Shown here: piece after piece, positions 13,714-63,774 of the stretch
Layout: each line of letters begins with the position of its first letter
Position numbering within the stretch: the stretch's first letter is position 1
Virus record (IMG/VR): IMGVR_UViG_3300048919_000123
Span: 19,665-83,664 of that record
Length of the DNA stretch: 64,000 nt
Origin: a virus
Direction: 5' to 3' (one strand)
Notes under the pieces: generated by a model
Told to the model about the DNA's origin: nothing
What the model saw: only the letters and a program-made list of their open reading frames with translations
Database searches by the model: none
Made by a program: the position numbers and the translations under genes

Positions 13714-13814
13714 GCCGTATCGTCTTCCCTAGAGATGGCGCGAGTTTAGTTGGCCAACGGCCTGAAATACAAGGGTTCTTTTCTCGCTACTTAACGCGAT
13801 ACTTGAAGTACATA

Positions 13815-13844
13815 GGGATAACTCGCTGCTTAGCGAGTTATCCC
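13815..13844 (-). repeat. Palindromic element overlapping the terminase stop
   Basis: GGGATAACTCGCT, loop GCTT, AGCGAGTTATCCC: thirteen perfect pairs. The terminase TAA stop lies in the loop. It is a member of a family of CTCGCTA/TAGCGAG elements found at gene-block borders in this window. A partial second copy (TCTCGCTACTTAACGCGATA) follows at about 13782-13801, within the 116-nt gap before the portal gene. Confidence 0.8.
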
Positions 13845-15623
13845 CTTGCGTTTAGCAAACCCGAACATTCCCTGCAGGACGTGCTGGATCTCACCCTCTT
13901 CCGGCTTTTCCACCACAGCGCTGCCGAGTTTCACCTTCGACGTGCCTGGCATCACGCCGACCACGCTGTGGTCTTCGAACTGGTCGCAGGCGATGGCCGC
14001 GATGTTGGCGTAGTTCAGCGCGTGCACCCAGTGATCCTGCTTGTTGGTCTTGATGAACTTCTCGGTGATCTGCCCATCGTTGCCGCGCTCGCGCACCTTC
14101 TTGGTGGTCTCCAGATGCTTGAACAGCTCGATGCGCAAATCATCCCTGTGCGGGTAGTGGCACTCGCCCGCGTTGTGCTGGTTCAGCAGCAGGGTCAGGG
14201 TCTTCGTCCGGTCAGCGTTGATCACCTCGCCCTCGGTCTTCTCCACGATCGGCAGGAAGCCTGGCAGGTTGCTGACGTAGACCACCGCCTGGATGCCGTG
14301 GCGCGCGTTCACCAGCATGTTCACCAGTGTGATGTCGGGGCCGGCGTCGATGCACAGCTTGCGCATGTTGAAGAAGTCGTAGCGCTCCAGCACCTTCTCG
14401 TAGGCGGGGTCGCTTTTGGTGTTGGCGATCTTCTCCATCCACACGACGTGCCAGCCACCCGGCACCTTCACCTTCACCACGAAGTGCAGGATCTTGCCGA
14501 TGTCCATGCCGCCGACGGTGCCGCACGGGATGATGCACTGGTTGAAGATCCACAGGTCGACGTCACAGGTCTTGGTGCGGTGCTCGGCGGTGACGATGAA
14601 GCTGTTTTCCGAGTCGGAGAAGGGCAGCCCGAGCACGAAGTTGAAGAAGTCGGACTTCAGCGGGTAGGCCTCGAACTGGGCGAAGATGTTCGGCGGCGTG
14701 TTGTACTTCGGCACGTCCCACGGGTTCACCTGGTAGCTGTGGTTCCAGTTGTCCGGCTTCTTCGCCACCCACTGGCGCCGCGCCGGGTTGACCAGCGATG
14801 GCCACAGATCCTTGTGGCAGGACGGGCAGCGCATCCACGCTGTCTGCACGTCGATGCGTTCGTCATCGAGGTTGTCCCGGCCGAACTCCAGCAGCGACTT
14901 GTCCCAGCCTGGCAGGATCATATCTTCGAGGAAACTCGGGTTCACCCAGGTCTCGCAGCGCTCGCACTTGCACATGTAGTAACGCTGGTCGCCGGCCTGA
15001 AAGCCGACGTCGATGCCGAAGCCATCCACCGTCGGCGTGGAGAATCGATAGCGGTAGCCACGGTTGCCTTGGGCATCGACGGTCTTGGCGTGTCGGATAC
15101 GGGAGTTCAGCTTGCCGAGCACGACCTCGTTGGAGAAGTCGGTTTCGTCGGAGATGATCATCTCGGCCGGTACGGAAATCGCCGCGTTGGCGCCGTAGGT
15201 GCCGATGATGTACAGGAAGTTGCGGCCGATCTTCTTCATGCCCGCCGCGTCGGAGCCGGCCTTGACCAGCGCCGAGTAGAACTCGCTCTGCTCCACGGCG
15301 CCGTCGATCCGGTCTTTGGAAAACTTGGTGGCCATCTCCTTGGTCGGCTGGCTGAACATCACCCGGATGTTCTTCATCACCGCAAGGATCGCCAGGGTCT
15401 TCTGCACCATCATCTCGGTCAGGCCGACCTGCGAGCACTTGCGCACGTCGATCCGCTGCGAGGTGTCCTTCACGATATCGATCTGAAATTCGTGGTCGTC
15501 GAAGGAGAACTTCTCCCCCTCGACCATCCCGTATTTCAAGATGGTCTGATCCAGTTCCTTCATGCCCTCTTCGCGGCTGAGGGCCATTCTGAACCGTTCT
15601 GCTACCGATCCCTGGTCGCTCAA
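13830..15623 (-). CDS. Terminase large subunit (GpA-like)
   Basis: 597-aa packaging motor and nuclease. The ATPase domain has a deviant Walker A region RKCSQVGLTEMMVQK (about 61-75), then FSQPTKEMATKFSKDRI, and Walker B MIISDETDF (about 155-163). A zinc-binding pair CKCERC and CPSC (about 225-270) is typical of GpA-type terminases. The nuclease part shows GGMDIGK, CIDAGPD and a late QDHWVHALNY. The likely start is a TTG at 15623 preceded by AAAGGA; the next ATG lies twelve codons inside. The gene follows a 142-aa gene by five bases. Confidence 0.93.
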   Translation of the reverse strand: MSDQGSVAERFRMALSREEGMKELDQTILKYGMVEGEKFSFDDHEFQIDIVKDTSQRIDVRKCSQVGLTEMMVQKTLAILAVMKNIRVMFSQPTKEMATKFSKDRIDGAVEQSEFYSALVKAGSDAAGMKKIGRNFLYIIGTYGANAAISVPAEMIISDETDFSNEVVLGKLNSRIRHAKTVDAQGNRGYRYRFSTPTVDGFGIDVGFQAGDQRYYMCKCERCETWVNPSFLEDMILPGWDKSLLEFGRDNLDDERIDVQTAWMRCPSCHKDLWPSLVNPARRQWVAKKPDNWNHSYQVNPWDVPKYNTPPNIFAQFEAYPLKSDFFNFVLGLPFSDSENSFIVTAEHRTKTCDVDLWIFNQCIIPCGTVGGMDIGKILHFVVKVKVPGGWHVVWMEKIANTKSDPAYEKVLERYDFFNMRKLCIDAGPDITLVNMLVNARHGIQAVVYVSNLPGFLPIVEKTEGEVINADRTKTLTLLLNQHNAGECHYPHRDDLRIELFKHLETTKKVRERGNDGQITEKFIKTNKQDHWVHALNYANIAAIACDQFEDHSVVGVMPGTSKVKLGSAVVEKPEEGEIQHVLQGMFGFAKRKGITR

Positions 15624-47037: not shown

Positions 47038-48366
47038 ATGGGACTGAACAGTGGCCAGGCCGAAGCCGTAAACAAAGCACTCGACGCTTATGAGAATGGC
47101 GCGCAGGGCTACACCATCATCGGCGAAGGCGGTACAGGCAAGACCTACTCCTGCATGGAGATCGCGGTGATCCTGCTCGACGCCGGGCTCAAGATCATCT
47201 TCGTGGCACCGACCAACAAGGCGGTGAAACAGCTGGAGAAGGCAGCGCGCAAGTACGGGCTGCCAATGGACAAGATCGGCTTCAAGACCGCCCACAGCGC
47301 GTTGGGCTTGGCTCTGATGCCAACGGATGAACGCAAGTACGCTGCCCGGGTTCGTGACAGCGTGCTGGGCGACTACAACATGGTGGTCTGCGACGAAGCT
47401 TCGATGCTCGGCGAGATCTTCCTGATGGACTACCTGCTACCGGATCTGCAGAACAACGAGGTGTTCTGCCTGTTGATGGGCGACCAGATGCAGCTGCCCC
47501 CGGTGAAGGAGAAGGAATCCAAAGCCTTCGGCCTGTTCCCCACCAGCGAGCTGACCCAGGTAGAACGGCAGAAGAACAACCCGGACGGCACCCCGAACGG
47601 CATCCTGCAGCTGACTCATCCGCTGCGCGCCGCCATAGAAGAGAACCGCTCGTTCAAGTTCGACACGATCCCTGCCCACAACGTTACCGTGCTCAAGGCC
47701 GCTGACTTCCTACAGGCAGTGGTGGCCGAGTTCGATCTGACCACGGATCTGGAAGATGTGCGGGTGCTGGCGTGGCGAAACTACCGCGTCGACGACATCA
47801 ACAAGGCAATCCGTGCCAAAATCTACGGCCCGAAAGCCGCACGTTTTGAAGTCGGCGAGCGCCTGGTAACCGGCAGCCCAATTACCCGGGCTGGCGAGGT
47901 CGAGCTGTCCACCGACGAAGAGTCGCTGGTCGCTTCGGTGCGCGAAAGCACCATGTTCGATGAGGAGACCGGCGAGAAGTGGAAGACGTGGCTGGTCACC
48001 CTCAATCCTGTGTATGCTGATACACGGCAGGTGTTCGCTCACGTCCTGCACGAGGATGAGTTCGAACGCTACAACCGTTACACCAACGAACTCAGCGAAA
48101 AGGCTATCAAGGCCAAGAAAAGTGGAGGCAACCCCGGCTACCACTGGAAGACGCTTCACCAGTTCAAAGACCTGTTTGCGGATCTGAAATACTGCTACTG
48201 CATCACCGTCCACCGCAGCCAGGGCAGCACCTTCAAGCGAGTCATGGTCGATGTCAAAGATCTGCTGGAAAACCCAATCCGCAGTGAAAGGCAGCGGCTT
48301 TTGTACGTGGCGTTCAGTCGGCCACAAGAGGAATTGATCATCAACAAGTTCGGGTTTACCGCTTAG
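47038..48366 (+). CDS. SF1B DNA helicase (Dda/RecD-like)
   Basis: 442 aa. Walker A GEGGTGKT (29-36), motif Ia VAPTNKAVKQLEKAA, Walker B VVCDEAS (about 117-123), motif III MGDQMQLPPV (about 146-155), motif V ITVHRSQGSTF and motif VI RLLYVAFSRPQEEL (about 418-431). The short length and motif order match T4 Dda/RecD-type 5'-3' helicases that remodel forks or displace proteins. It opens the replication block, behind an AT-rich promoter-like stretch with AAGGGGAT as ribosome site. Confidence 0.92.
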   Translation: MGLNSGQAEAVNKALDAYENGAQGYTIIGEGGTGKTYSCMEIAVILLDAGLKIIFVAPTNKAVKQLEKAARKYGLPMDKIGFKTAHSALGLALMPTDERKYAARVRDSVLGDYNMVVCDEASMLGEIFLMDYLLPDLQNNEVFCLLMGDQMQLPPVKEKESKAFGLFPTSELTQVERQKNNPDGTPNGILQLTHPLRAAIEENRSFKFDTIPAHNVTVLKAADFLQAVVAEFDLTTDLEDVRVLAWRNYRVDDINKAIRAKIYGPKAARFEVGERLVTGSPITRAGEVELSTDEESLVASVRESTMFDEETGEKWKTWLVTLNPVYADTRQVFAHVLHEDEFERYNRYTNELSEKAIKAKKSGGNPGYHWKTLHQFKDLFADLKYCYCITVHRSQGSTFKRVMVDVKDLLENPIRSERQRLLYVAFSRPQEELIINKFGFTA

Positions 48367-48638: not shown

Positions 48639-51527
48639 ATGTATTATTTCCTTCAGTTCCGTGCGGACAAGAAGGAACCATGGCGGCTCTACACAGAGGA
48701 GCAGCTGCAATCAGCTGAGCTTCCAGGCCCGCCTGCGTTCAAAACTGTCCTGATGGTTGATCAGAACCCCGAAGAAGTTACCGAGAACGGTCTCAATGCT
48801 GTTGAGACCGTTCTGTATATGGGCCCGATGTACCTGGACTTTGATGACGCTGACGATATTGACCAGGTGCTGGCCGACGTCAACGCGGTCATCGACTACC
48901 TGATGAACAAGCTGGATATCCCGGCTGAGTTCATCCACTGCTGGTTGTCCGGCGGCAAGGGCGTGCACATTACGATCCCGGCTCAGGTCTTTGGCGTCAA
49001 GAAACCTACAAAGTTCCTGCCGATGATCTACCGCGAGATCATGCTGACCATCATGAAGGGCGCCGGCCTTGAATCGCCGTGCAGCCTGGATGAGTCGGTT
49101 TACTCCTGTGGCCGTGGCCGGATGTGGCGCTGTGAAGGCGTTCCACGCCCCGGCAGCGGCACCTACAAAGTCGGCACCACGCCGAACGAACTGGCTGACA
49201 TGAACAGCGAGGAATACCACGCCATCGTGGCCTCGCCGCGGCCGGCACTGGCCCAGCCTCAGCCCGGAAAGAACGTCACCTACGCCAAGGCTGAGCAGCT
49301 GCTCAAAGCTGCCCGTGTCGCGGCGTCCCGTAAGGTCAAGGCAATGAGCGCTGCCTGCGTTGTGCCGAAAGAGGCAATGCGGGAGTGGGAAGGCATCCCT
49401 GGCTGCATCGAGAAGCTGATCACCGAGGGTGACTCAGGCAACTCGAACTGGAACCAAGCGGCCATGCAGCTGGCGGCTTACATCGCTGCCCGCTACGAGA
49501 AGTCCGAAGAGAAGGAGTACATGGAGCTGCTGGTGCGGCCGTTCGTGAAGAACGTCGAGTCGAGCAGCCGGCCTTCTGAAACAGAACGACTCAAGCATGT
49601 GAAAGGGCAGCTGCAGCGCACCTTCGGCGGATCCATCAAGTTCGCCCCCGGCGCGCTGATCGCCACCATCGGCACCCCCTGCCGCCAGTGCCCGATCTGC
49701 CGCGCCGACGTGGCGAGCGGCGAGACCTCGCAGGAGCAGGTGGGCAACTACAACTCCGACGTGCGTATCCGCTACGACGACAACGGCTACCACCTGGTCG
49801 GTGAGGAAAACAGTCGGCAGCTGACCAACTTCACCTTCTGGCCCACGCTGGAGGTATTCGAGCTGGAGCCCTACACCAGCGCCACCGGCCAGACCAGCTG
49901 GCGCAACAGCGAGCGCAAGGAACTGATTGGAACCCTGCGCGTGGCCGGCAGTGAGGTGGTCAGCGAGATCTCCTTGTCGGAGCGGTCGTGGAGCTCCAAG
50001 CGCGACCTTATCGCGGCGGTGAAAGGCCGGGACGCTGCGGTATACGCCGGTGACGGCGAGATCCAGAAGATGCTGGTTGCCTTACTGAAATTTTCTCGGG
50101 ACAAGGCTGAAGATAAGGAGTTGGACAAGATGATTCGTGCGAACGTCTGCGGGATCGTTTTAGATCGCAGCGATCGGGGCACGGTCGCGCACTATGTGGA
50201 AGCTGGGGCAGCAATCACCGGTCTCGGCGGCCGTAGCCCTTACCGTTTTGACGGTAACGCGCGGCAATCTCCCGCCCTGATCGCTGGCAGCAACCCGCTG
50301 GAAGACGACGACCAACTGGCCACGGCCATGCGGGCGTTGTGCAAGGTCAATGAACCAGTGCAGGTGGCCCAGATGCTGGGCTGGTTTGCCTCGTGCCACT
50401 TCCGTGAACACATCCAGTTCGAGGAACCGCAGTTCCCCCTGTTGAACATCTATGGCAACGCCGGGGCCGGTAAGTCCTGCCTGGCTACCCTGATGGCTTT
50501 GATAAACGGGATCGACTACAACAAGGCCGAGCTGCAGAACGTGGAGGTGGGCACATTGTTCCCACTGGTTCGCTATGTCAGCAGCAGCACCACAGTGCCT
50601 CGCCTGATCGAAGAAGTGAACCCGGTGCAGCTGGGCAACACTCGCTACGGTCAGATCGTCGGCATTCTCAAGGCGGCCTGGAGCCACGCGCCAATTCAGC
50701 GAGGCAACATCAACAGCCAGCGTGAGCTGACCGTCACCGAGGATCGGGTATCCGCCCCTTTGGTGTACACCAGCGAGCAATCGGCGTCGGTGCCAGCGCT
50801 GCGCAGCCGGTCGGTGGAAGTCCGCCTGCAGGCCAAGGCGCTGCAGAATCAGGAGTACCGCGACAACTACCGCACCGCCGTGCAGAACCGCTCAGCGTTC
50901 GCCAGGCTCGCCCGAGCTATGGTGACGGTGGCCCTGCAGACTTCGCCTAACGCGCTGCTGAAGATCCTGCACAGCAAGTCGGAGCTGATCCACAAGCGCG
51001 TTGAAGAACGCCCTCGCTGGGGAATGATGTGCTGCCTGACCGGGCTGCACATGCTCATCCACACCATGAAGGAGTTCAAGGTCGATGGCGTGGAAAGCGT
51101 TGAGATGCTCGAGCGTGAGCTGATCACCTACTACGGCGGCAAGGTCACCGAAGCCGAGCGCGGCAAGTCGTCCTCGGAAGTTGACCGGGTGCTGAGCACA
51201 ATGAATATTCAGGCAGATGCGACCTTCGATGAACGTCTCCGTCTGATCCCGGGCAAGCACTACTGGCGTCAGGGCGACTCGCTGTACCTGGTGCTGCAGT
51301 CCTGTCTGCCGCGCTACCACGCCCATACCAAAAACGTTGGTGAAATGGCGGTGATCCGAAGCTACAACCAGCTCGCGGAGCTGATTGAAGGCGAGGTTTA
51401 CTTCCTGCGCACCGAGCCCCATCCACTCAACAACGAAATCGATGTCTTCGTGATCAGCGTGAAAGCTCTCGCCGAAAAAGGGACGCTGCTGAACAACTTC
51501 GAAAATGGAACGGAGCCCGACCAATGA
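48639..51527 (+). CDS. Primase-helicase fusion (AEP-type primase plus P-loop helicase)
   Basis: 962 aa. The N-terminal archaeo-eukaryotic primase domain has YLDFDDADDI (about 65-74, catalytic Asp) and WLSGGKGVHITIP (about 101-113, SGGKGVH). A cysteine cluster CGRGRMWRC (about 160) and CRQCPIC (about 347) suggest zinc sites. The C-terminal helicase starts near 560 with Walker A YGNAGAGKS (about 604) and a long helical tail. It would prime and unwind at the phage fork. Multi-domain layout clear; exact helicase superfamily (SF3-like or DUF927-like) not certain. Confidence 0.88.
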   Translation: MYYFLQFRADKKEPWRLYTEEQLQSAELPGPPAFKTVLMVDQNPEEVTENGLNAVETVLYMGPMYLDFDDADDIDQVLADVNAVIDYLMNKLDIPAEFIHCWLSGGKGVHITIPAQVFGVKKPTKFLPMIYREIMLTIMKGAGLESPCSLDESVYSCGRGRMWRCEGVPRPGSGTYKVGTTPNELADMNSEEYHAIVASPRPALAQPQPGKNVTYAKAEQLLKAARVAASRKVKAMSAACVVPKEAMREWEGIPGCIEKLITEGDSGNSNWNQAAMQLAAYIAARYEKSEEKEYMELLVRPFVKNVESSSRPSETERLKHVKGQLQRTFGGSIKFAPGALIATIGTPCRQCPICRADVASGETSQEQVGNYNSDVRIRYDDNGYHLVGEENSRQLTNFTFWPTLEVFELEPYTSATGQTSWRNSERKELIGTLRVAGSEVVSEISLSERSWSSKRDLIAAVKGRDAAVYAGDGEIQKMLVALLKFSRDKAEDKELDKMIRANVCGIVLDRSDRGTVAHYVEAGAAITGLGGRSPYRFDGNARQSPALIAGSNPLEDDDQLATAMRALCKVNEPVQVAQMLGWFASCHFREHIQFEEPQFPLLNIYGNAGAGKSCLATLMALINGIDYNKAELQNVEVGTLFPLVRYVSSSTTVPRLIEEVNPVQLGNTRYGQIVGILKAAWSHAPIQRGNINSQRELTVTEDRVSAPLVYTSEQSASVPALRSRSVEVRLQAKALQNQEYRDNYRTAVQNRSAFARLARAMVTVALQTSPNALLKILHSKSELIHKRVEERPRWGMMCCLTGLHMLIHTMKEFKVDGVESVEMLERELITYYGGKVTEAERGKSSSEVDRVLSTMNIQADATFDERLRLIPGKHYWRQGDSLYLVLQSCLPRYHAHTKNVGEMAVIRSYNQLAELIEGEVYFLRTEPHPLNNEIDVFVISVKALAEKGTLLNNFENGTEPDQ

Positions 51528-51748
51528 TGGAAAATTACGCCGACCCCCTCGATCGTTCAGTAGCTGAGCAGGACATGATCCTGCAGGAGCAGCTACGCCT
51601 GGCCCGCAAGCCTGTCCACACCTTGGCCTACATCGGCAAGTGCCACAACTGCGGTGAACCGTTAGCGGATCCTCAGCGATTCTGTGACGCGGATTGCCGC
51701 GACGACCACGCCAAGATCCTTCGCAGCAGGTCTCAGAGGGTGTACTGA
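51524..51748 (+). CDS. Small zinc-ribbon protein, 74 aa
   Basis: Helical N-terminus (MMENYADPLDRSVAEQDMIL), then CHNCGEPLADPQRFCDADC, four Cys in a zinc-finger arrangement resembling small DksA/TraR-like or DUF2116 phage proteins, and a basic tail. Start overlaps the primase stop and its stop overlaps the next start, so all three are coupled. Confidence 0.75.
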   Translation: MMENYADPLDRSVAEQDMILQEQLRLARKPVHTLAYIGKCHNCGEPLADPQRFCDADCRDDHAKILRSRSQRVY

Positions 51749-53439
51749 TGAGCAGAAGTCTTCACGACTTGATGCTCGAAGTCGGGGTGGGCAACCACCC
51801 CGGCTGGTTCGACCAGATCAAACTCCCCCACTGGCCGATGAAGCATCAACTGGACATGATCAAGATCTACCCCTGGAACGACCGTTACGGGGATTTCTCC
51901 GAGCCAGGCGCAGGCAAGACGTACCCGGCTCAGGTTCATGCAATCATGATGGCGGCGATGGGTAACCGCGTCGTCTTCACCACACTGCCCACGCTGATCC
52001 CGCAGTTCATGGCGGAGTTCGAGCTGTTTTTCCCGGGCATCCATCAACACCTGCGCATCGAAGACCTCGACTGCAGCGCGGACAAGAAGAAGAAAAAAGA
52101 GGCGCGGTGGGACGTCGAAGGCTGGCCAGATATTCTGGTCATGTCCTACGACATCTACCGCATGTACAACGCCAAGCATGCACGGAAAAAGATCGGAAAT
52201 AATCTGTGGAAAATAAGGAATATCAACAAGATAGGGACAAAAGAAGAGTTCTCTACCAGCTATTTCATTGAGCAAGGCGACGACAAGGGTGAACCCCGAT
52301 TCCCCAAAGCTCAGCCGTACACGAAGGATGGTCGCATGATCAATCCGAAAAACGGCACGGCGCCGAACCCCAAGCAGATGCTCCTCTACCACCAGAATTA
52401 CCACGTCCAGTTTTTCGACGAGGGTGACGCGCTGTGCGGCATGGACTCGATTCTGTCGGAATCGGTGTACGAGATGAGCATGCGGCTGAAGGACGAGGTG
52501 GCGATCTACGTGCTGACCGGCACGCCGATACCGACCCACCTGCACAACGCCTACGGCCTGATCCGGCTGATCAACCCAAGCGCCTACCTGAACAAGGCAG
52601 CGTTCATCCGCCAGCACTGTGAGCAGGAGGAGTTCAAGGTTCCGCTGCCCAACGGCAAGAGCAAGACGATCAAGCAGATCGTCGGCTACAAGGACGTCGA
52701 GAAGATCGAGGCTTCCCTGTGGAAGAACGCTCACCGGGTGCAGAAGCGCGACGTGATCCAGATGCCGGAGCCGATCATCAGCGAGGTGCCGGTCAGGCTG
52801 TCCGGACGCCACCTGAAGCTGTACCAGACGGTGATCCGGGATCGGTTCGCTGTGTTGGGTGATCGGGTTCTGGCGCCGGACAGCGCCAGTGCCCTGCGCC
52901 ACATGGCCCTGCAGCTGATCAGCTGCCCCACCAAGTTCGACCCGACCCTGGTGGAGTGCGATGAGCTGGCCAAGGCCACCGGCGAGCTGGTGGAGACGAT
53001 CAACCCCGGCCCCGGCCGCAAGCTGATCATCTTCGCCTTCTACCGCCAGGCCATTGAAGGCCTCGCCATGCAGTTCGCTCACCGCAAGGTGGCGATCGTC
53101 TACGGCGAGATACCGGACAGGCAGGCGCAGCTGGACAAATTCCAGAACGATGATGAGTGCGACACGATCATCATCCAATGGGTGGCCGGAGGCGCCGGGC
53201 TGAACTTGCAGGTGGCTGGGTACATCATCTTTTACGAATGCCCAACGTCGCCCAAAGCGGCGAAGCAAGCGATTGCACGGGCTGACCGTAAAGGGCAGGT
53301 AAACATCGTCAACGTGTACTTCATGCGGGTCTTGAGGACGCTGTCCGACAAGAACTTCAGGGCGCTGTTGGCGAACGAAGAAAGCAACAACCGGGCGATC
53401 AAGGACAAGCATGACTTGCTCCATGAATTACTCGGTTGA
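51748..53439 (+). CDS. SNF2/SF2-type DNA helicase
   Basis: 563 aa from ATG 51748. Motif I EPGAGKTYPAQ (about 51-61), Ia FTTLPTLIPQF, motif II FFDEGDAL (about 222-229, DEGD instead of DEAH), motif III LTGTPIPT (about 256), and C-terminal motifs KLIIFAFYRQAIEGL, IIQWVAGGAGLNLQ and QAIARADRKGQVN (about 504-516). SF2 helicases of this SNF2-like type remodel or resolve DNA in phage replication and recombination. An inserted Lys/Asn-rich segment (120-210) is unusual. Confidence 0.88.
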   Translation: MSRSLHDLMLEVGVGNHPGWFDQIKLPHWPMKHQLDMIKIYPWNDRYGDFSEPGAGKTYPAQVHAIMMAAMGNRVVFTTLPTLIPQFMAEFELFFPGIHQHLRIEDLDCSADKKKKKEARWDVEGWPDILVMSYDIYRMYNAKHARKKIGNNLWKIRNINKIGTKEEFSTSYFIEQGDDKGEPRFPKAQPYTKDGRMINPKNGTAPNPKQMLLYHQNYHVQFFDEGDALCGMDSILSESVYEMSMRLKDEVAIYVLTGTPIPTHLHNAYGLIRLINPSAYLNKAAFIRQHCEQEEFKVPLPNGKSKTIKQIVGYKDVEKIEASLWKNAHRVQKRDVIQMPEPIISEVPVRLSGRHLKLYQTVIRDRFAVLGDRVLAPDSASALRHMALQLISCPTKFDPTLVECDELAKATGELVETINPGPGRKLIIFAFYRQAIEGLAMQFAHRKVAIVYGEIPDRQAQLDKFQNDDECDTIIIQWVAGGAGLNLQVAGYIIFYECPTSPKAAKQAIARADRKGQVNIVNVYFMRVLRTLSDKNFRALLANEESNNRAIKDKHDLLHELLG

Positions 53440-53503: not shown

Positions 53504-53550
53504 AAAATGACGATGAAACGAAATTAAATTAACTCAGAGAGATAATGATC

Positions 53551-54459
53551 ATGGCTCTTAAACGCGCAGTTCCAGCAGAAGAAACCACCAACACCAACAC
53601 CACCGCAGAGAAAGCGGTTGAAACGGTAAAGGAAACCGTCTCCACCGTGGAAACGGCGGCAGCGGATACTGCGAAGGAATCGCAGGCCAAGGAAGGCGAG
53701 CTGGTGGACGGTGATGCACAGCTGGCCGATGAAGGCGCTCTCAAGGATGCGGCGCCGGAAGCCGAGCCAGAAGCAGAAGCAGCAGCTTCCGCCGAAGCGG
53801 CCATCGAGCCTGAGCAGATCCGCGACAAAGCGGTGGCAGTTCAGACCGAAAGCCCTGTAGCACTCAGCAACACCGAGCGCCAAGCCGGTGCAGCCCGTCA
53901 GTTCAGCGAAAGCATGGCTGAGCAGGGCTTCGAAGGCCTGAACCTGACCGGCATGTCCTTCGACCGCGTCAAGCTGGACGAAGGCAAGTTCCTGCTCGGC
54001 AGCGAGGAAACCGAGATCGGTGAGCAGATCGATGTCAACATCCTCAGCACCCGCAACATTTACATCGTGCGCCAGGGTTCTTTCAAGGATGCCGAGCTGT
54101 TCTACAGCTACGACAAGAAAGGCCTGACTCACAGCGACGGCACCAGCGCTCAGGCTACTCTGGACGAGTGGGCTGAAGAAGGCTACGGCGTGGAAGGCCA
54201 GCCGCTGGACATCAAGGAATACATCGAAGCAATGGCTCAGCTCAAAAATCGCGACGACGAGTACGACGAGCACATGGTTTCGCTGTCCATTCCACCTGCT
54301 TCGAAGGATCGCGTGGCAGGGGCGTTTGCCGTCGGCACCCGCAAATACAACTGCGCGCCAGGTCAACTGATCATCCAATGCTCTGTGGGCAAGAAGATCG
54401 GCACCGGCGATAAAGCGTTCCGTCCGTGGAACTTCAAAGCCATTGGCGTGAACGAGTAA
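53551..54459 (+). CDS. Abundant-type hypothetical protein, replication block
   Basis: 302 aa from ATG 53551 (MALKRAVPAEETTNTNTTAE); an in-frame ATG at 53545 is too close to the GAGAGA ribosome site. Residues about 10-110 are a disordered Ala/Glu/Thr-rich region; 115-300 form a beta-rich domain (RNIYIVRQGSFKDAELFYSY; CAPGQLIIQCSVGKKIGTGD). The strong promoter and terminator on either side argue for high, separate expression, as for a single-stranded-DNA-binding or recombination accessory protein, but no OB motif is evident. Confidence 0.7.
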   Translation: MALKRAVPAEETTNTNTTAEKAVETVKETVSTVETAAADTAKESQAKEGELVDGDAQLADEGALKDAAPEAEPEAEAAASAEAAIEPEQIRDKAVAVQTESPVALSNTERQAGAARQFSESMAEQGFEGLNLTGMSFDRVKLDEGKFLLGSEETEIGEQIDVNILSTRNIYIVRQGSFKDAELFYSYDKKGLTHSDGTSAQATLDEWAEEGYGVEGQPLDIKEYIEAMAQLKNRDDEYDEHMVSLSIPPASKDRVAGAFAVGTRKYNCAPGQLIIQCSVGKKIGTGDKAFRPWNFKAIGVNE

Positions 54460-54532: not shown

Positions 54533-55195
54533 ATGACCGAAGCGAACAAAGACCACGGCTTTACCGGCGGCTTCCACGAGGCAATCCTCAACCAGCTCGA
54601 AGAGACTCGGGTGACGGCTGTTCTCGCTGATATCCCAGCTGAGAATCACGAAAAAATTCTCCAGACCCCGTTCGCGCTGATGGTCAGCGACCTGGCCAAG
54701 CCCGGCCAAGCGATGCTGGACACCCTGAAGTTCACCGGGTTCCTGCAGCTCCTGGCTCTGTGCGCCGCGATCATCAACAAGGGCAACCAGCTCGACGCAG
54801 CCAAGAAGGTCATCGTCTACAACAAACCTCCGGTCGACGGCATCGACCCGAACGCATTCAAGCTGCCAAGCAGCCAGCCGCTCGGCGAAGCGTTCGAAGC
54901 GCTGACCCCTGAAAAAATGCACATGCTGCACATGGCCGTAGGCCTGGCCGGCGAAGCAGCCGAGATGCTGGAAGCGGTGGTCAATCACGTACTGGGCGGG
55001 CAGCTGGATGGTGTGAACGTCCGCGAGGAAGCGGGCGATGCAACCTTCTACATCGTGGGCCTGCTGAACAGCATTCAGACCTGCCTGGACGAGGCGCTGC
55101 TGGCCAACAAGGTCAAACTCCTGGGCAAGCGCTACAAGAACGGGTACAGCGATCAGGCCGCCCAGGCGCGCGCTGACAAGGCTGAGGGCCAGTGA
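54533..55195 (+). CDS. MazG-like nucleotide pyrophosphohydrolase
   Basis: 220 aa. The C-terminal half has the MazG all-alpha signature: [13 protein letters not shown] (about 146-158) and [19 protein letters not shown] (about 174-192), with the metal-binding Glu/Asp set EE..D. The N-terminal 120 residues are helical and less typical. Such enzymes hydrolyse NTPs/dNTPs or alarmones and often accompany phage thymidylate and dNTP genes, as here (ThyX, dNMP kinase). Start ATG 54533; an upstream reading lacks a ribosome site. Confidence 0.82.
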
Positions 55196-55197
55196 TC

Positions 55198-55485
55198 ATG
55201 CCCATTCAGCCACTGAACGACCGTGTAGTTGTACGCCGCAAAGCGGCGGCGAAAGAAACCGCCAGCGGCATCATCCTGCCTGGCGAACCGGAGAAACTGA
55301 ACCAGGGTACGGTGGTTGCCGTTGGCCCTGGCCGCCGTGAGAGTGGTGAGGTGGTTCCACTCTCGGTGAAGGTGGGCGACACCGTGGTGTTCGGCCCCTA
55401 CTCCGGCAGCAACGTCGTCAAAGTCGACGGCGAAGACCTGCTGGTGATGGCTGAGGCGGAGCTGCTCGGCATTATCACGCAGTAA
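55198..55485 (+). CDS. groES: GroES-like co-chaperonin
   Basis: 95 aa. [60 protein letters not shown] and [15 protein letters not shown] follow GroES along its full length, including the mobile loop around residues 17-30. It would cap host GroEL, as T4 gp31 does, to help fold phage proteins such as the capsid. No GroEL gene is present. ATG 55198 has GAGGG upstream and follows the MazG stop closely. Confidence 0.95.
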
Positions 55486-56820: not shown

Positions 56821-59800
56821 ATGACCGAACATCCATTACAAATCATCGACTTCCGAGCGACAGTTAAACACGCTTATTACGGGGTGAGTGACAAGACCCT
56901 GCACTGCGTGAAGCTGGATCGGAAGTTCGCGGAATGGGAAGCCGCCGCCGGCGACTTCCTGACCCGCTACCTGCGGCCGATGCTGGAGCAGGGTTCCTCA
57001 CCGCGTGAAATGGTCATCGCTCACGACGCCGGCCGCGCTTACCGCACCGGCATCTACCCGGCCTACAAGGGCCAGAAGGAAAAGAAGGACGAGAACAAAA
57101 GCCCTGTCGAGATCGAGCAGTACAAGCTGCTGATGAACTGGGCCAAACGGTTCTTCGCAGCACTCGGCGCCACCCAGCTGTTCGTGGAAGGCGTCGAAGC
57201 GGATGACCTGATCGCCTGGATTTGCCAGATGGTTAAAGGGCCGAAGGACATCCGCACGGTCGACGAAGACATGCTGCAGCTGGTCGACGCCGACACCATC
57301 GTGACCCTGAAGAACGTCGCCCACTACGGCGCCGACGGGGTGTACCCCGAGGGCCACGCTCTGGAAGGGCTGCCCTACCGCCTGACCAGCTTCGCCAAGT
57401 CGATCATGGGCGACAGCTCCGACAACTACAAAGGCGTCACGGGGATGGGCCCGGCAAAGGTCTTGACGCTGCTGAAGAACTACGGCGCCGACGGCCTGGA
57501 CGAGCTGGCCCACATCGTCGACACCGGCAACACCGATCTCCTCGATGAAACCATTGAGGCCTCCAACGACAAGATCCTGATCAAGCTCAAGGAGAACTTT
57601 GGCGACTGGAAGATGGGCTGGCGCCTGGCGTCTTTGAAGCCGGAGCTGTGCTGGAAGCCGCGGCAGCGCAAGCTGACCAAGCTGAAGATCCACAAGCGCG
57701 TGCCAGATCCGACCGCGCTGTACAACTGCCTGAAGGAAGTCGGCTGCGAGGACATGTGGGAGGCGGAGTATTGCCACCTGATGCCGTCGCCGATGATCGT
57801 CGACGCCAACAACTGGCCGGAGATGCGTGAAGCGATCTTCGCAGAGATCAAGGCCGGGAACCTGACCGCGTTCGACTATGAGTCGTCGGACAAGAACCCG
57901 ATCATGGACTTCCGCCGCGCTTCGCAGGCCGGTAGCAACTTCGTCGACATGCTCAGCCAGGAGCTGGCCGGCGCCTCGTTCCAGTTCGGCCGGCACCTGG
58001 AGAACGTGATCTACATCCCGGTCGATCACAAGGACAGCGCCAACCTGAACAAAGAGGTGATCCTGGAGATCCTTGAGTTCGCCGGCGAGCACACCCAGCG
58101 AGTGGCCCACAACGCCTTGTTCGAAGGCGTGGTCAGCTTCACCAACCTCGGCGCCTGGCTGACCAACATCCAAGACACCCGGATGATGCAGCGCTTCTAC
58201 GACGAGAACATGGAAGCGGGTCTGAAGGCGATCTCGCTGAACTACCTGTCCTACGAGCAGACCTCGTTCCAAGACACCCTGGCGGCCGGTAACGGCGGCG
58301 AGGGCGTCAACATGATGTGCGAGCTGACCGCTGACGAAGTCTTCAGCTACGGCACCGACGACAGCTTGGTGACTGGCCACCTGCATGACCTGCTGAAGCT
58401 TCTGCTGCAGCTGGATGGGCAGTGGGACTTCTACCGGCAGTGGGCTGTGCGTCCGACCGAGGTGCTGCAGCGTGCCTACGTGGCTGGTTCAAACATGAAC
58501 TGGGCGCTGCAGAAGCGCATCCACTCCAAGGATCTGGAAACCATCCGCACCGGCATGATCGAACTTCGCGAGATCCTCGAGAAGAACGTCACCGGCAACA
58601 TCACCCCCGGCGCCAAATCGCTGATCGACGCGGAGAAGGATTACATCTTCCGCGCGGCGAAGAAGAAAGCCGATGGCAACGTGGAGGCAGCCAACCTCAA
58701 GGTGTCTGAGTGGCGCAAGAAGATCGAAGCGTCCTGCCAATACACGCCGTACCGCGAAGAGTCGGTAATGCCGACTTTTGCCTTTACGCCGACTCAGCTG
58801 AACCCGGCGTTCGAGAAGGTCGGCCTGCCAAAAATCGAGAAGGTCACCCTCAAGGCGATCACCGAGTGGTTTGAAGCAGCGGGCGCTGCGGGTTTCCGCG
58901 ATGAATGGAAGCTGACCGAGCAGCAAGTTGAAGTCGTCGACATGATCGCCGCCGCCGTCAACGCCGGCTGCCTGAAAATGGGTGATCTACGTCGCAAAGC
59001 TGAAGAAATGGATTCGGCAGAAGACGTCTGCGATGCCAAGCTGGCGACCGCCGAGAAGGTGTTCGACCAACTGGGTGAGCTGATCCAGCGGCTGGCCGGC
59101 GTGGAGCCACGGATCGTGCAGTTTGGCGACCCGTTGAACGTGGGCAGCCCGGCCCAGATGCAGCAACTGCTGTATTGCAAGATCGGGATGCCAGTGCGGC
59201 TGCGCGGCAAGACCCCGGGCAAAGGTCGGTTGTCCATCGGCATCAAGGAAGCAGGCCCGTCTACCGACGAGCAAGCGATCCTCACCGCCCTGGCGAACGA
59301 CGTGCCGGAAGACTGCTGGCAGCGTGAGGCTCTGCAGGTACTGCGCGTGGTCAAATCGGCCAGCACCCGCTGCAGCCTGTTCCACGACAAGTACCCGATG
59401 TGGCGTCACCGTGACGGTCACGTTCACCCGATCGTTACCGACGCAGGCACCGACACCACCCGGCCAACGGCGAGCGCGCCGAACAGCCTGCAGGTGCCGA
59501 AGAAGGGCGAAGGCAAGGTCATGCGGTCGATCTACATCCCGCCGAACAAGGACTACTTGTGCGTGGCGATCGACTTCAACGGCCAGGAGATCCGTCTCAT
59601 GGCCAACCTCGCCAACGACCCGGTGATGCTGTCGGTGTACGAGCCGGGCAACGAGAAAGACCTGCACAGCATGACCGGTGCCGGTATCGCGAAGATGGAC
59701 TACATGGAGTTCTGCCTGGCCAAGGACAACAGGGAGCACAAGCTGCACAAGCTGGCCGTGGCGATTCGCGGCAAGGCCAAGACCATCAACTTCGGTATGG

Positions 59801-60477
59801 CCTACGGCGCAGGCGCTGGCACCCTGTCCCGCAACCTCATTGCACCACTGGAGGAAGCGAAACAGCTGCTGGAGCAGACCATGGCGCTGTACTGGCGCAT
59901 CCGCCCATGGCAGGAAGAAACCGCAGCGTTCATGGAGAAAAACGGCTTTACGCTCACCGCGTTCGGCACCAAGCGGCACGCCACGCCGGACATCTTCAGC
60001 AACGACGGCGGCAAGGTGGCGCGGCAGCACCGTCAGGGCACCAACGCAACGATTCAGGGCAGCGCGGCGCAGATGCTTCGCATCGTGCTCACCCGGATCG
60101 CCGAAAGCGGCCTGATGGATCGCCTGCGCATGTCCTTCTTCGCGCCGATCTACGACGAAGTGGTGTCGTGGGTGCACAAGGACGACGTCCTGGCTTACTG
60201 CCAAGAGGTCGGCCGGTTCATGGAAGAATCGACACCGCCGGGGCACAAAGTTCGACAAGTACCGGAGTTCTCTATCGGCTGTGACTGGGGTAGAGTGCAG
60301 GAGCTGGGCCGGGACATCAGCCCGGACAACGTGGCCAAGTTCGTCGCCGAGGCGCTGGAAGAAGGCCGCGACATCTGGGAGAAAGACGTGCTGGAACCTT
60401 TCGATCCGATCCGCAAGGCGACCTACATCGAGGCGGATGAGGACGAGGAGGTGGCGGTTGAAAACATCGCCGACTAA
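56821..60477 (+). CDS. Family A DNA polymerase with 5'-3' and 3'-5' exonuclease domains
   Basis: 1218 aa. The N-terminal FEN/PIN domain has EADDL (126-130), RTVDEDMLQLV (145-155) and GDSSDNYKGVTGMGPAK (197-213). The DEDD proofreading domain has FDYESSD (about 349) and HNALFEG (about 430). A helical insert (about 580-830) follows. The polymerase domain has motif A VAIDFNGQEIRLMANL (about 913-928), motif B RGKAKTINFGMAYGAG (about 982-997) and motif C IYDEVVSW (about 1109-1116). Motif C has Tyr where bacterial Pol I has His. It is larger than Escherichia coli Pol I (928 aa). The main replicative polymerase of the phage. Confidence 0.95.
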   Translation: MTEHPLQIIDFRATVKHAYYGVSDKTLHCVKLDRKFAEWEAAAGDFLTRYLRPMLEQGSSPREMVIAHDAGRAYRTGIYPAYKGQKEKKDENKSPVEIEQYKLLMNWAKRFFAALGATQLFVEGVEADDLIAWICQMVKGPKDIRTVDEDMLQLVDADTIVTLKNVAHYGADGVYPEGHALEGLPYRLTSFAKSIMGDSSDNYKGVTGMGPAKVLTLLKNYGADGLDELAHIVDTGNTDLLDETIEASNDKILIKLKENFGDWKMGWRLASLKPELCWKPRQRKLTKLKIHKRVPDPTALYNCLKEVGCEDMWEAEYCHLMPSPMIVDANNWPEMREAIFAEIKAGNLTAFDYESSDKNPIMDFRRASQAGSNFVDMLSQELAGASFQFGRHLENVIYIPVDHKDSANLNKEVILEILEFAGEHTQRVAHNALFEGVVSFTNLGAWLTNIQDTRMMQRFYDENMEAGLKAISLNYLSYEQTSFQDTLAAGNGGEGVNMMCELTADEVFSYGTDDSLVTGHLHDLLKLLLQLDGQWDFYRQWAVRPTEVLQRAYVAGSNMNWALQKRIHSKDLETIRTGMIELREILEKNVTGNITPGAKSLIDAEKDYIFRAAKKKADGNVEAANLKVSEWRKKIEASCQYTPYREESVMPTFAFTPTQLNPAFEKVGLPKIEKVTLKAITEWFEAAGAAGFRDEWKLTEQQVEVVDMIAAAVNAGCLKMGDLRRKAEEMDSAEDVCDAKLATAEKVFDQLGELIQRLAGVEPRIVQFGDPLNVGSPAQMQQLLYCKIGMPVRLRGKTPGKGRLSIGIKEAGPSTDEQAILTALANDVPEDCWQREALQVLRVVKSASTRCSLFHDKYPMWRHRDGHVHPIVTDAGTDTTRPTASAPNSLQVPKKGEGKVMRSIYIPPNKDYLCVAIDFNGQEIRLMANLANDPVMLSVYEPGNEKDLHSMTGAGIAKMDYMEFCLAKDNREHKLHKLAVAIRGKAKTINFGMAYGAGAGTLSRNLIAPLEEAKQLLEQTMALYWRIRPWQEETAAFMEKNGFTLTAFGTKRHATPDIFSNDGGKVARQHRQGTNATIQGSAAQMLRIVLTRIAESGLMDRLRMSFFAPIYDEVVSWVHKDDVLAYCQEVGRFMEESTPPGHKVRQVPEFSIGCDWGRVQELGRDISPDNVAKFVAEALEEGRDIWEKDVLEPFDPIRKATYIEADEDEEVAVENIAD

Positions 60478-60757
60478 AGGCGGCTGGTGGGATAAGTTCC
60501 GGGAGGCTGTTCTCAGCCTCCCTGAGCCATCCCCGGCGAGGTCAATTGACGTTGACCAGATGCTCGCCGACAACACCCGCCTGCTGGAGGAGAACCAGCG
60601 CCTGCGGGAAACCGCTGCAACTGTCCGTGAGCTGCGCAAGCAGCTCGCTGACTCCAAGCATAACGAGTCACTCATGGCCAGGAGGATTGAGGCTTTCCGC
60701 CGTAAATGGCCAGCCATCCACAAAGATTTCTTCACAGCCGAAAGGAAAACCCAATGA
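60458..60757 (+). CDS. Coiled-coil hypothetical protein with TTG start
   Basis: 99 aa from a TTG at 60458 preceded by GAGGAGG, overlapping the end of the polymerase gene by 20 bases. Residues about 35-85 are a Leu/Arg/Glu coiled coil (DNTRLLEENQRLRETAATVR; ELRKQLADSKHNESLMARRI). An internal ATG (60558) is a poorer alternative. Possibly a small replication accessory protein. Unknown. Confidence 0.6.
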   Translation: MKTSPTKGGWWDKFREAVLSLPEPSPARSIDVDQMLADNTRLLEENQRLRETAATVRELRKQLADSKHNESLMARRIEAFRRKWPAIHKDFFTAERKTQ

Positions 60758-61500
60758 GCTTCAATGGACAGAGTATCAAGGCTTTAGCCCACGACTACGA
60801 GACCACGGGGGTGGATGCAGCAACTTGCGGCGTCCTGCAGTCAGCCCTGTGCATCGTGACCGTTCACCAGACCGGTGAGTTTGAAATCCACGACAAGGAC
60901 GTGACCTTGTTGAACCCCGGGCAGGAGATTCACCCGGAAGCCTCGAAGGTACACGGCTACTACGCCCACGACCTGATCGACGAGAAGCCATGGGAAGCCT
61001 ACCTGGCTGAACAGATGCAGACCGTCAACGAGATGAAGTTGGACGCCGTGATCGGCTACAACAGCGCAACCTTCGACAACCGTATTGCCGCCCGTGTCGG
61101 TCTGCGCGCGCCGAAGTCCATCGACCTGATGAAGGCCGCCCGCAAGCTGAAGTCCGAACACAAGTGGCCGAGCGCCAAACTGGTTCACTTCTACGAGCAC
61201 CTGGTGGGCTCGCCGCTGGGCAAGGCGCACGATGCCTTCGCCGACGTGGAAGGCACGCTGATCTGCATTAAGCCGTTGTTCAGCTGGGCCAAAGTACAGT
61301 GCCTGGACGAGCTGATGGTCTGGATGCAGGGCGACGATGGCACGCTGGACATGAAGATCGGCTTCGGCAAACACAAGGGCAGCAAGGTCAAGAACCTCGA
61401 CCGCGATTACTGCAAGTGGCTGCTCAGCGACAAGTGCGACATGTTGTTCAGCGATGAGCTGACCCAGTCGCTGAAGCTGCGTCTGGAGCAGCAGTTGTGA
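60754..61500 (+). CDS. DnaQ-type 3'-5' exonuclease with extra C-terminal domain
   Basis: 248 aa from ATG 60754. Exonuclease motifs: HDYETTG with Asp14 and Glu16, a second at GYNSATFDNRI, and a third at KAHDAFADVEGTL with the His-Asp pair of DEDDh enzymes. The C-terminal 50 residues (KIGFGKHKGSKVKNLDRDYC, then KWLLSD) match a small domain often appended to such nucleases. It could proofread, trim recombination intermediates, or degrade host DNA. ATGA overlap upstream. Confidence 0.88.
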   Translation: MSFNGQSIKALAHDYETTGVDAATCGVLQSALCIVTVHQTGEFEIHDKDVTLLNPGQEIHPEASKVHGYYAHDLIDEKPWEAYLAEQMQTVNEMKLDAVIGYNSATFDNRIAARVGLRAPKSIDLMKAARKLKSEHKWPSAKLVHFYEHLVGSPLGKAHDAFADVEGTLICIKPLFSWAKVQCLDELMVWMQGDDGTLDMKIGFGKHKGSKVKNLDRDYCKWLLSDKCDMLFSDELTQSLKLRLEQQL

Positions 61501-62071: not shown

Positions 62072-62593
62072 ATGGCTGCCAGCATCGGGAAAGTGTTCGA
62101 GAAGGAGATGATTCAGGTGTTCAAGATGCTGTTCGAGCAGCGCCTTGTCAGCTACCACCGCCTTTCGGACTCCGGAGCCGCCGGCTCCATCGTCGCTGAG
62201 CAGCCAAGCGATTACCTCCTCGGCCTTCCTGCGGGGTGTCAGAACCTGCAGGACGGCCAGAGGCTGTGTTTCCTCGAGGTGAAAGCCAGTGAGGAGCACA
62301 GCACGATGCCAAAAGCCGCGGTGCGGCCGGCGCAGCGTGGGGCGATAGCCCGGTTCAGGTTCCTGCTCGGCCTGCCCTACTACATCATGTTCTGGGATGC
62401 GCAGAATGGTGTGATCCAGCTGTGGGACGGCATCGCCGTGCACGACACAGCGCGGATCGACAAACACCACCTGCTGGCCACCTGGCCGAACGTTGGGGTG
62501 ATCAACAAGCTGCAGCGACAGCGCGTGGTGGATCTGATTGCCGACTACTTCCGCATACCGACGTATGCGGATACACTGAACAAATCCCGCTAA
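62072..62593 (+). CDS. PD-(D/E)XK nuclease, possible Holliday junction resolvase
   Basis: 173 aa. Helical start with Glu10 (GKVFEKEMIQVF), then Asp47 in QPSDYLLGLP and FLEVKAS with Glu69 and Lys71, the PD-(D/E)XK pattern. RPAQRGAIARFRFLLGLPYY and IMFWDAQNGVIQLWDG follow as in RecU/VRR-type resolvases or phage endonucleases. It would resolve branched DNA before packaging. The last codons fall in a border element. Confidence 0.75.
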   Translation: MAASIGKVFEKEMIQVFKMLFEQRLVSYHRLSDSGAAGSIVAEQPSDYLLGLPAGCQNLQDGQRLCFLEVKASEEHSTMPKAAVRPAQRGAIARFRFLLGLPYYIMFWDAQNGVIQLWDGIAVHDTARIDKHHLLATWPNVGVINKLQRQRVVDLIADYFRIPTYADTLNKSR

Positions 62594-62605
62594 GTAGCGG
62601 GGTTT
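62582..62605 (+). terminator. Border-element hairpin at the nuclease stop
   Basis: AAATCCCGCT, loop AAGT, AGCGGGGTTT (ten pairs with one T-G), then CTAATTTTGG. The TAA stop of the nuclease gene lies in the stem and loop. Terminator-like and a member of the dispersed element family. Confidence 0.75.
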
Positions 62606-62625
62606 CTAATTTTGGGGTGTGGACT

Positions 62626-63774
62626 ATGAAAGTATTGTCAGAGAAGACGCTGTACAAGAATCACGGGAAAGCGATCGGCTGGTGGAAGGTGGAAGCGTGT
62701 GACCTGGGGGACGGTAAGGCAGGCCTGCGCATCACGTTCGCCAAAACCATGGACGGCGCCGTCGTCGAGAAGAGCTCGGCGGTCAAGGGCGTAAACATCG
62801 GCAAGGCCAACGAGACCACCCCTTCGCAGCAAGCGATCGCTGAAGCAGAGTCGCGCTGGAAGAAGCAGCTCGACAAGGGTTACGTCGAGACCGAGGAAGC
62901 CGCCACCGCTCCGGCTACCAACGCCAGCGGCAACGAGATGCCGATGCTGGCGCAGCCAATCGAAAAGGTGAAGCCAGAGAAGGTCGACTGGGCCAACGCC
63001 TTCGTGCAGCCGAAACTCGATGGTCACCGCTGCCTGTCGAAGAATGGTCTGATGTACAGCCGCAACGGCAAGCCGATCAACCTGCCCCACATCGCTGAAG
63101 CCCTGGCGCTGCTGGGCGACGTTCACCTGGACGGCGAGCTGTACTGCCACGGGATCTCGCTGCAGGAGATTGGCAGCCTGATTAAAGATCCCCGCGAAGA
63201 ATCGAAGGTCATCGAATACCACATCTACGACATGGTCGCCGGTGACCAGTTCTCTGACCGGTATGCCCGGGCTGCAGCGATCCTCGGCCAAACGCCTTAT
63301 CAGGTGACTCACTCCACAGCGCAGTCGCCGCTGAAGCTGGTGTCGACGGTGCGCGTTGACAGCCTGGCCGGCGCCAAGCATCTGCACCAGCAGTACCTGG
63401 AGCAAGGCTACGAGGGCAGCATCGTCCGCCACGGCAGCAGCGGCTACCTCGACGGCAAGCGTAACCCCGGTCTGCTGAAGATCAAGGACATGGAAGACCA
63501 CGAGTACGAGGTCACCGGCTACGAGGAAGGAACCCCGCTCATCTCCGGCGGCGTCACTTACCGTGTGCCGGTCTGGATTATGAAGGTCGACCAGGAAACT
63601 GACAGAACCTTCAAAGCCACCGCGGCCGGCACCAAAGAAGAGAAGAACGAGCAGTGGGAAGCGCGCGACAGCTACGTCGGTCAGCGCAACGTCGTGCGCC
63701 ATTTCGGGTTCACTCCGGACGGCATCCCGAACCTGCCGGTCTCCAAGTGCTGGGAATCGGACAAAAACGTATGA
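62626..63774 (+). CDS. ATP-dependent DNA ligase
   Basis: 382 aa from ATG 62626. The catalytic motif I is FVQPKLDGHRC with Lys130; motif III is DVHLDGELYCHG; motif IV is QGYEGSIVRHG; motif V is PGLLKIKDM. Residues 1-90 form an extra N-terminal domain (HGKAIGWWKVEACDLGDGKA), resembling a WGR-like or small DNA-binding module. It seals nicks in phage DNA and could complete Okazaki fragments after Pol I. Start chosen after the border element; an upstream reading is the shadow of the nuclease gene. Confidence 0.93.
   Translation: MKVLSEKTLYKNHGKAIGWWKVEACDLGDGKAGLRITFAKTMDGAVVEKSSAVKGVNIGKANETTPSQQAIAEAESRWKKQLDKGYVETEEAATAPATNASGNEMPMLAQPIEKVKPEKVDWANAFVQPKLDGHRCLSKNGLMYSRNGKPINLPHIAEALALLGDVHLDGELYCHGISLQEIGSLIKDPREESKVIEYHIYDMVAGDQFSDRYARAAAILGQTPYQVTHSTAQSPLKLVSTVRVDSLAGAKHLHQQYLEQGYEGSIVRHGSSGYLDGKRNPGLLKIKDMEDHEYEVTGYEEGTPLISGGVTYRVPVWIMKVDQETDRTFKATAAGTKEEKNEQWEARDSYVGQRNVVRHFGFTPDGIPNLPVSKCWESDKNV

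Follow-up and report, generated by a model that had tools for sequence, protein, structure and literature searches.

A full-length Pol I-type DNA polymerase with a helical thumb insert as the probable replicase of a phage

Phage PolAs commonly leave primer removal to another enzyme, and a gene in the virus record IMGVR_UViG_3300048919_000123 raises the question of how a phage might use a Pol I-type polymerase that carries this function itself. The window that we analyzed, i.e., the whole stretch of 64,000 nucleotides, comprises bases 19665 to 83664 of the 83,664-bp record, and the polymerase with its domains and the partner, helicase, primase, DnaQ-like exonuclease, resolvase and ligase genes described below lie on its plus strand. 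An open reading frame (ORF) at 56821-60477 (1,218 codons plus a stop codon, with an ATG start and AGGAG just 5' of it) codes for a family A DNA polymerase of 1,218 amino acids (aa), in which a FEN (5'-3' exonuclease) domain, a 3'-5' exonuclease (exo) domain and a polymerase (pol) domain were identified by means of Pfam, an AlphaFold model, Foldseek and VIA-align. The Pfam model DNA_pol_A (PF00476) matches at 1.8e-51, over its cut-off, and family A membership is borne out by the presence of the motif A Asp, the motif B Arg, Lys, Phe and Tyr, and the motif C Asp-Glu. We consider it probable that this is a phage replicative polymerase of full-length Pol I type, combining primer removal by a flap nuclease, proofreading with a Glu in motif II, a Klenow-type hand whose motif C has a Tyr, and a thumb domain at the T7 site.

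The enzyme is not an isolated oddity: it belongs to a lineage already annotated as DNA polymerase. Judged by the polymerase gene, the phage is related to two Pseudomonas siphoviruses, PMBT3 (Maxrubnervirus) and Lana, and to UAntarctica (74%, 79% and 69% identity, respectively), in all three of which the orthologue carries the annotation DNA polymerase (I), and SHOU24-like Vibrio phages encode polymerases with 32 to 35% identity over 96 to 97% of the length. Because there are full-length relatives at 69 to 90% identity, and because dN/dS relative to two full-length relatives is 0.05 to 0.23 across FEN, exo, insert and pol, indicative of purifying selection, the frame is not a chance ORF. The long polymerase is found in 31 of 50,697 phage records, and a pattern-based search of 84,980 species genomes (bacteria and archaea), sensitive to close relatives only, gave none among its 44 pattern matches. 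As it is annotated in several genomes, the polymerase is not new as a gene. No study of the lineage was found in the literature searched, and an earlier description in Czernecki 2023 (gkad242) or in a 2016 viral replication-gene analysis (gkw322) is possible; the word 'polymerase' is absent from the main text, as available in part, of the PMBT3 paper, as is 'DNA polymerase' from those, likewise partial, of the Lana paper and the paper on a SHOU24-like phage. An identity as DpoZ, the 2-aminoadenine polymerase, was considered and rejected (NCBIfam NF038380, 31 bits, under the cut-off of 500).

Residue counts given below refer to the 49 phage rows, window included, of a broad alignment of 48 relatives, the window polymerase and E. 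coli PolI. The relatives derive from 113 loci with a BLAST match; frames shorter than 900 aa or with the match on the opposite strand were excluded, and the 65 long frames were collapsed to 48 by identical core sequence. FEN presence among these relatives is biased, because the search patterns sit in the FEN part, whereas the counts for exo motif II and motif C were not selected in that way. For comparison, we used a sample of 13 other phage PolAs, comprising 11 from a spread list and 2 from a homologue search.

The FEN domain (about residues 1-315; 56821-57765) was delimited by Pfam, alignment and Foldseek. The model 5_3_exonuc_N matches at 1.8e-15, over its cut-off, and the C-terminal model 5_3_exonuc at 7e-7 with 30.1 bits, under its 40-bit cut-off. 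Nine acidic residues, i.e., D10, D69, E126, D128, D129, D148, D150, D198 and D201, align with E. coli residues that we take to be D13, D63, E113, D115, D116, D138, D140, D185 and D188, respectively; the loss of catalytic Asp residues that the first-pass annotation had named as what would refute its proposal was therefore not encountered. A first alignment had set H68 opposite E. coli D63, a shift of one residue, and a later one sets D69 there. Conservation of these positions is high: D10 is present in all 45 phage rows with a residue there, position D69 is Asp in 41 and Glu in 5 of 46 such rows, E126, D128, D129, D148 and D150 occur in 47 of 49 rows (gaps in the other two), D198 is found in 47 rows, and D201 in 45, the other four having Glu (2), His (1) and a gap (1). 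Thus, a FEN domain is present and conserved in the polymerase, and FEN activity would be expected from its residues. Among the 13 other phage PolAs, none has a 5'-3' domain (10 judged by Pfam; 3 with just 40 to 51 residues before Exo I). Consistently, the part of PMC9069017 available describes phage PolAs as commonly being without this domain, which supports the earlier statement that most phage family A polymerases lack it. A separate FEN was detected by Pfam in 2 of the 13 records with FEN-less PolAs, and a further gene, in PE3, is annotated 5'-3' exonuclease although the model missed it.

The remainder of the polymerase domain (about residues 770-1160; 59128-60300; Pfam, alignment and VIA-align) carries D918 in motif A, K987, F991 and Y995 in motif B, and Y1111-D1112-E1113 in motif C, and the alignment further identified E923, R925 and R983. 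D918, E923, R983, K987, F991 and D1112-E1113 are present in 47 to 48 of the 49 rows (L081 deviates and L055 is incomplete), R925 in 43, and Y995 in 46. Motif C reads IYDEVV, as had been reported from the first look at the sequence, and Y1111 occupies the place of E. coli H881. Across the 49 rows, the residue at this place is Tyr in 39, His in 8 and none in 2. Tyr at this place goes along with the thumb insert described below: Tyr is found in 38 of the 39 rows, window included, with an insert of at least 140 residues (range, 144 to 220), the 39th (L055) being incomplete, and the ten rows without a large insert comprise eight with His, one with Tyr (L078, insert of 108) and one unaligned (L081). 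All 13 other phage PolAs have His in motif C, and none has Tyr. In a FastTree tree built from 47 exo and pol core sequences and rooted on E. coli (L042, L055 and L081 left out), 37 sequences with a large insert and Tyr group together in a single clade (support 0.88), and L078 is placed elsewhere.

The 3'-5' exonuclease domain (about residues 322-545; 57784-58455) was recognized by alignment, with D352, E354, E435, Y510 and D514; the Pfam model DNA_pol_A_exo1 matches at 5.6e-5 and 23.5 bits, just under its 23.6-bit cut-off, and the domain alone had no match among PDB sequences up to E 10. Of the DEDDy set, which in E. coli numbering is D355, E357, D424, Y497 and D501 (PMC9324360, as available in part), four of five residues are found, and D424 of motif II corresponds to Glu435. 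The claim that all three domains are intact was therefore too strong, although the FEN, exo and pol parts are each present. Glu435 counts against a 'canonical DEDDy' exonuclease, not against one that works as a proofreader. It is also no peculiarity of the window: motif II has Glu in 47 of the 49 rows, window included (Asp in L079 and L081 only), and Glu is more widespread than the motif C Tyr, being present in 7 of the 8 His rows. In the sample of 13, it occurs in phikmvvirus PE3, Acinetobacter phage MD-2021b and, doubtfully, SSP002.

Just 3' of the polymerase, a gene at 60706-61500, the start of which may lie later, codes for a separate DnaQ-like 3'-5' exonuclease (PHROG 192 match; DYE, NSATFD and HDAFAD motifs by reading), so that a polymerase already carrying its own exonuclease domain adjoins a second exonuclease gene. 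Epsilon gives proofreading to Pol III alpha in trans, and the neighboring protein might similarly proofread for the phage polymerase, the built-in exonuclease being weak through Glu435. The near-uniform Glu and the three readable motifs of the adjacent gene speak for this arrangement, which we nonetheless regard as unlikely on the following grounds: (i) the other four exo residues (D352, E354, Y510 and D514) are invariant in 49 of 49 rows, which suggests that activity is kept; (ii) the Vibrio members, also with Glu, show no DnaQ-like match in the flanks of the polymerase, a negative that is tempered by a gene annotated oligoribonuclease near the polymerase of Vibrio PS14A.1; (iii) L039, L041, L042, L050-L052, L054, L055, L058, L066 and L084 have Glu and no DnaQ-like match in their flanks; and (iv) the Glu of the PE3 and MD-2021b PolAs lies at the same motif. 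On the flanks searched, a coupling of Glu435 to the DnaQ-like gene was rejected as a lineage-wide rule. Exonuclease activity of the polymerase itself would be predicted from its conserved residues.

We then turn to the thumb, in which the alignment and the AlphaFold model place a helical insert (about residues 593-762; 58597-59106) at the site of the thioredoxin-binding segment of T7. The earlier estimate of a large helical insert at about 580-830 was right as to its existence and, in the model, its helicity, and too generous as to its extent. Between two alignment columns, the phage polymerase has 176 residues and E. coli has 23, or 2 in another alignment. An AlphaFold2 model of residues 1-1196, built with 38 sequences (pLDDT 90.6, pTM 0.83), has the Klenow fold: the 50 VIA-align matches listed are Pol I-type large fragments (Z 31.7 to 34.4, aligned over about 320-1167), and Foldseek matches include the full-length M. 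smegmatis Pol1 and Taq, with 6vde, 1taq, 1tau and 1bgx extending over 1,176 to 1,189 columns. The structure prediction that had been suggested for the insert accordingly yields a helical domain within the thumb, mostly helices plus one short strand, between a long helix (561-589) and a strand (764-768). Its dN/dS values against the two relatives are 0.14 and 0.17, with dS of 0.80 and 1.49. A single-sequence search with the insert hit only 5 of the 50,697 phage records, each from a Pseudomonas phage that has this polymerase; in the alignment, the remaining large-insert rows show a counterpart, which in five Vibrio members measures 218 to 220 residues.

In an alignment with T7, the gap taken up by the insert also holds T7 residues 264-331, and T7 K268, the 272-290 loop, R318, E319 and E330 are described as parts of the thioredoxin-binding domain (PMC5984650, as available in part). 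In comparisons bearing on relatedness of the insert to the T7 domain, no T7 entry was among the Foldseek and VIA-align matches listed for the insert model, BLASTP gave no match between the two segments, and a sequence profile of the insert gave no convincing match in the PDB and no T7 chain. Alternatively, the insert could be a decayed duplicate of the thumb tip. FxPTxKQL...LGLP in the insert looks, by eye, like the PLNVGSPAQMQQLL...GMP that comes after it, and the order of secondary-structure elements is alike in the AlphaFold model; the profile comparison, at a probability of 0.3, was not significant and no better than for other windows of the protein, and the insert folded alone (pLDDT 87.6, pTM 0.61) had no PolA thumb among the matches listed. 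Supported by neither test, a duplication appears very improbable. According to the available part of PMC7699545, thumb insertions serve to recruit processivity factors in T7 polymerase and in the human mitochondrial enzyme, and in that of PMC10061031, a PolA of a mobile element is predicted to bind its single-stranded DNA-binding protein (SSB) at the thumb tip. By analogy with these three cases, the phage insert may raise processivity or dock a partner of any kind, to which we give somewhat less than an even chance.

A candidate for such a partner is a 304-aa protein of unnamed family encoded 5' of the polymerase (53545-54459), which tblastn and an iterated profile showed to be co-conserved with it and which might be an SSB or processivity partner. 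By tblastn, 29 of the 50,697 phage records have a homologue, and every one of these belongs to the 31 that carry the long polymerase; the other two are PV625063 (found by the profile, as L035) and PP701474. The number of independent co-occurrences is small, because many of the 29 records are near-identical Vibrio phages. The iterated profile located a homologue 5' of the polymerase at each of the 38 other loci with a large insert. The protein has no Pfam match up to E 5, and its best PDB match is at E 0.2; against PHROG, the window copy gave nothing up to E 0.01, and 1 of 24 members gave a weak match (E 0.0056). Docking of this particular protein by the insert is less probable than docking in general. 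Still more tentatively, the lineage might possess a processivity system of its own, in which the insert docks the 304-aa protein as a phage-encoded counterpart of T7 thioredoxin and the motif C Tyr and exo II Glu are co-adapted; we think this rather unlikely. If true, docking would make the one FEN-exo-pol polypeptide a processive replicase able to remove its own primers.

The role of main replicase is inferred from the setting of the gene, which sits in a replication module and has no other family A polymerase beside it in the record. PF00476 and PF02739 each match once in the whole 83,664 bp, both times in the polymerase gene. Toward the 5' side lie genes for a Dda/RecD-like helicase (47038-48366; PHROG and Pfam), a 962-aa primase (48639-51527; PHROG 16345, with DxD-type and Walker A-like motifs by eye and no Pfam match), an SNF2-type helicase/translocase (51694-53439; PHROG and Pfam), and MazG-like, GroES-like and ThyX proteins; toward the 3' side, the DnaQ-like exonuclease is accompanied by a dNMP kinase, a Holliday junction resolvase (62072-62593; PHROG) and an ATP-dependent DNA ligase (62422-63774, the listed ORF, the true start probably being further in; Pfam). 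This order is kept in PMBT3, plus a TerB gene, and partly in SHOU24. In the flanks, an SNF2-type gene is near the polymerase in 38 of 38 and a primase in 37 of 38 large-insert loci, so that the proposed covariation with the primase-helicase is seen as shared gene content; SNF2 neighbors of viral PolA were noted earlier (PMC9069017, as available in part).

The enzyme could instead be an accessory Pol I for repair and Okazaki processing, with host polymerase III or another phage polymerase replicating the phage. Its domains come in the order found in bacterial Pol I, and the Pfam FEN models match, as this explanation would have it. Weighing the other way, the NCBIfam models of bacterial full-length Pol I stay far under their cut-offs (TIGR00593, 209 of 600 bits; NF004397, 264 of 720 bits), the species-genome search described above gave no close relative, the replication module around the polymerase is conserved over a large divergence, and the record has no second family A polymerase, families B and C not having been searched for. 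We therefore consider an accessory role improbable.

The ligase that the first-pass annotation had ascribed to the phage is indeed present. An ATP ligase (PF01068) was detected in 11 of 16 lineage records tested. In the 13 phages with FEN-less PolAs, models found an ATP ligase in 2 and an NAD ligase in 2 others (4 of 13), and a short Kaylissa gene carries the annotation DNA ligase without a match to the models. For lineage plus window (12 of 17) versus FEN-less phages (4 of 13), Fisher's test gave p = 0.063, or p = 0.14 with Kaylissa included (5 of 13), for lineages that are not independent and IMG/VR records that may be fragments. The coupling of a ligase to the FEN-bearing polymerase is thus a trend only, a weak link, and the suggestion that the phage could finish lagging strands alone is a plausible conjecture.

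In Pol I, FEN cuts the displaced RNA-DNA flap, pol fills the gap, ligase seals the nick and exo corrects errors. A replicase of full-length Pol I type, the reading that we prefer, would work along the same lines: the FEN part would remove RNA primers as flaps, the 3'-5' exonuclease, with Glu in motif II, would proofread, the Klenow-type hand with the motif C Tyr would polymerize, and the helical thumb domain of ~170 residues might raise processivity or dock a partner, possibly the 53545-54459 protein. The residues for the FEN, pol and exo steps are present (with Glu at exo II) and kept by selection. Several observations weigh against this reading, in whole or in part. No activity was reported for any lineage member in the literature searched. 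The motif II Glu could weaken proofreading, and an Ala mutant at motif II of Tt72 polymerase keeps 4% of exonuclease activity, Ala rather than Glu being the residue assayed (PMC9324360, as available in part); the adjacent DnaQ-like exonuclease could proofread in trans. A known fold was not convincingly matched by the insert (Foldseek best E, 1.2; VIA-align best Z, 6.1), which does not make the fold new, and the insert is slightly acidic (24 K/R, 29 D/E), unlike the T7 segment (14 K/R, 7 D/E). Of the 10 loci that do not belong to the large-insert group, 5 also have the gene of the 304-aa protein, and the link of this gene to the polymerase may reflect shared inheritance of a module rather than contact. 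Finally, no ATP ligase was found in 5 of the 16 relative records, nor an NAD ligase in any of these 5.

Such a replicase, with its three activities and with a thumb domain and a partner of its own, would amount to a compact replisome for reconstitution. It would also offer a natural test of the effects of having Tyr rather than His in motif C and Glu rather than Asp in exo motif II, and polymerases with built-in nick translation are a possible use.

Two other phage polymerases and two further window genes deserve separate mention. In the relative L016 (IMGVR_UViG_2546826722_000003; 12953-13909), the polymerase is interrupted at motif B by 319 residues that resemble an intein, and inside this stretch an HNH endonuclease ORF (13125-13898; PHROG 374, E 5.7e-32) lies in a different reading frame; the ends of the intein were placed by eye, neither Pfam nor NCBIfam gave a match, and a frameshift history or sequencing error is possible. 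In L121 (Pseudomonas phage Pa BHU-17; 1432-4338), a PolA annotated putative phosphoesterase carries a uracil-DNA glycosylase domain at its N terminus (PF03167, E 4.6e-8). Within the replication module of the window, 55192-55485 codes for a GroES-like co-chaperonin (Cpn10, E 3.5e-27), and Vibrio relatives likewise have GroES genes annotated in this region. The window gene at 45512-46609 matches a PHROG named DNA polymerase, and its PMBT3 counterpart (54% identity) is annotated DNA polymerase; this name looks wrong, because Pfam shows no polymerase domain in the window copy.

Compared with known systems, the nearest likeness is to Lana, PMBT3, UAntarctica and the SHOU24-like Vibrio phages, which share with the window the same motifs, an insert at the same place and the same upstream gene; the five Vibrio members examined differ in that their flanks have no DnaQ-like match and their ligase gene lies elsewhere in the record. 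The PolA-SSB pairs of mobile elements similarly join a family A polymerase to a dedicated small partner gene, as in the phage, whereas those PolAs are putative primases with truncated N-terminal parts (PMC10061031, as available in part), and the phage protein is a candidate SSB only. Plant organellar and human mitochondrial polymerases, likened here by description only, also have thumb insertions, those of the plant enzymes being tied to lesion bypass and repair (PMC7699545, as available in part). In T7 gp5, the alignment places an extra thumb segment at the same site as the phage insert, with 68 residues and a basic character versus about 170 residues and a slightly acidic one, and with no BLASTP match between the two. 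T7 gp5, at 704 aa, is without a FEN part. Finally, E. coli PolA shares with the phage polymerase the FEN-exo-pol order, the catalytic residues of FEN and pol and, as judged from the model, the Klenow fold; it differs from the phage enzyme in having Asp rather than Glu in exo motif II, His rather than Tyr in motif C and Gln-Ile rather than Gly-Gln after the motif A Asp, and in lacking the thumb insert of ~170 residues.

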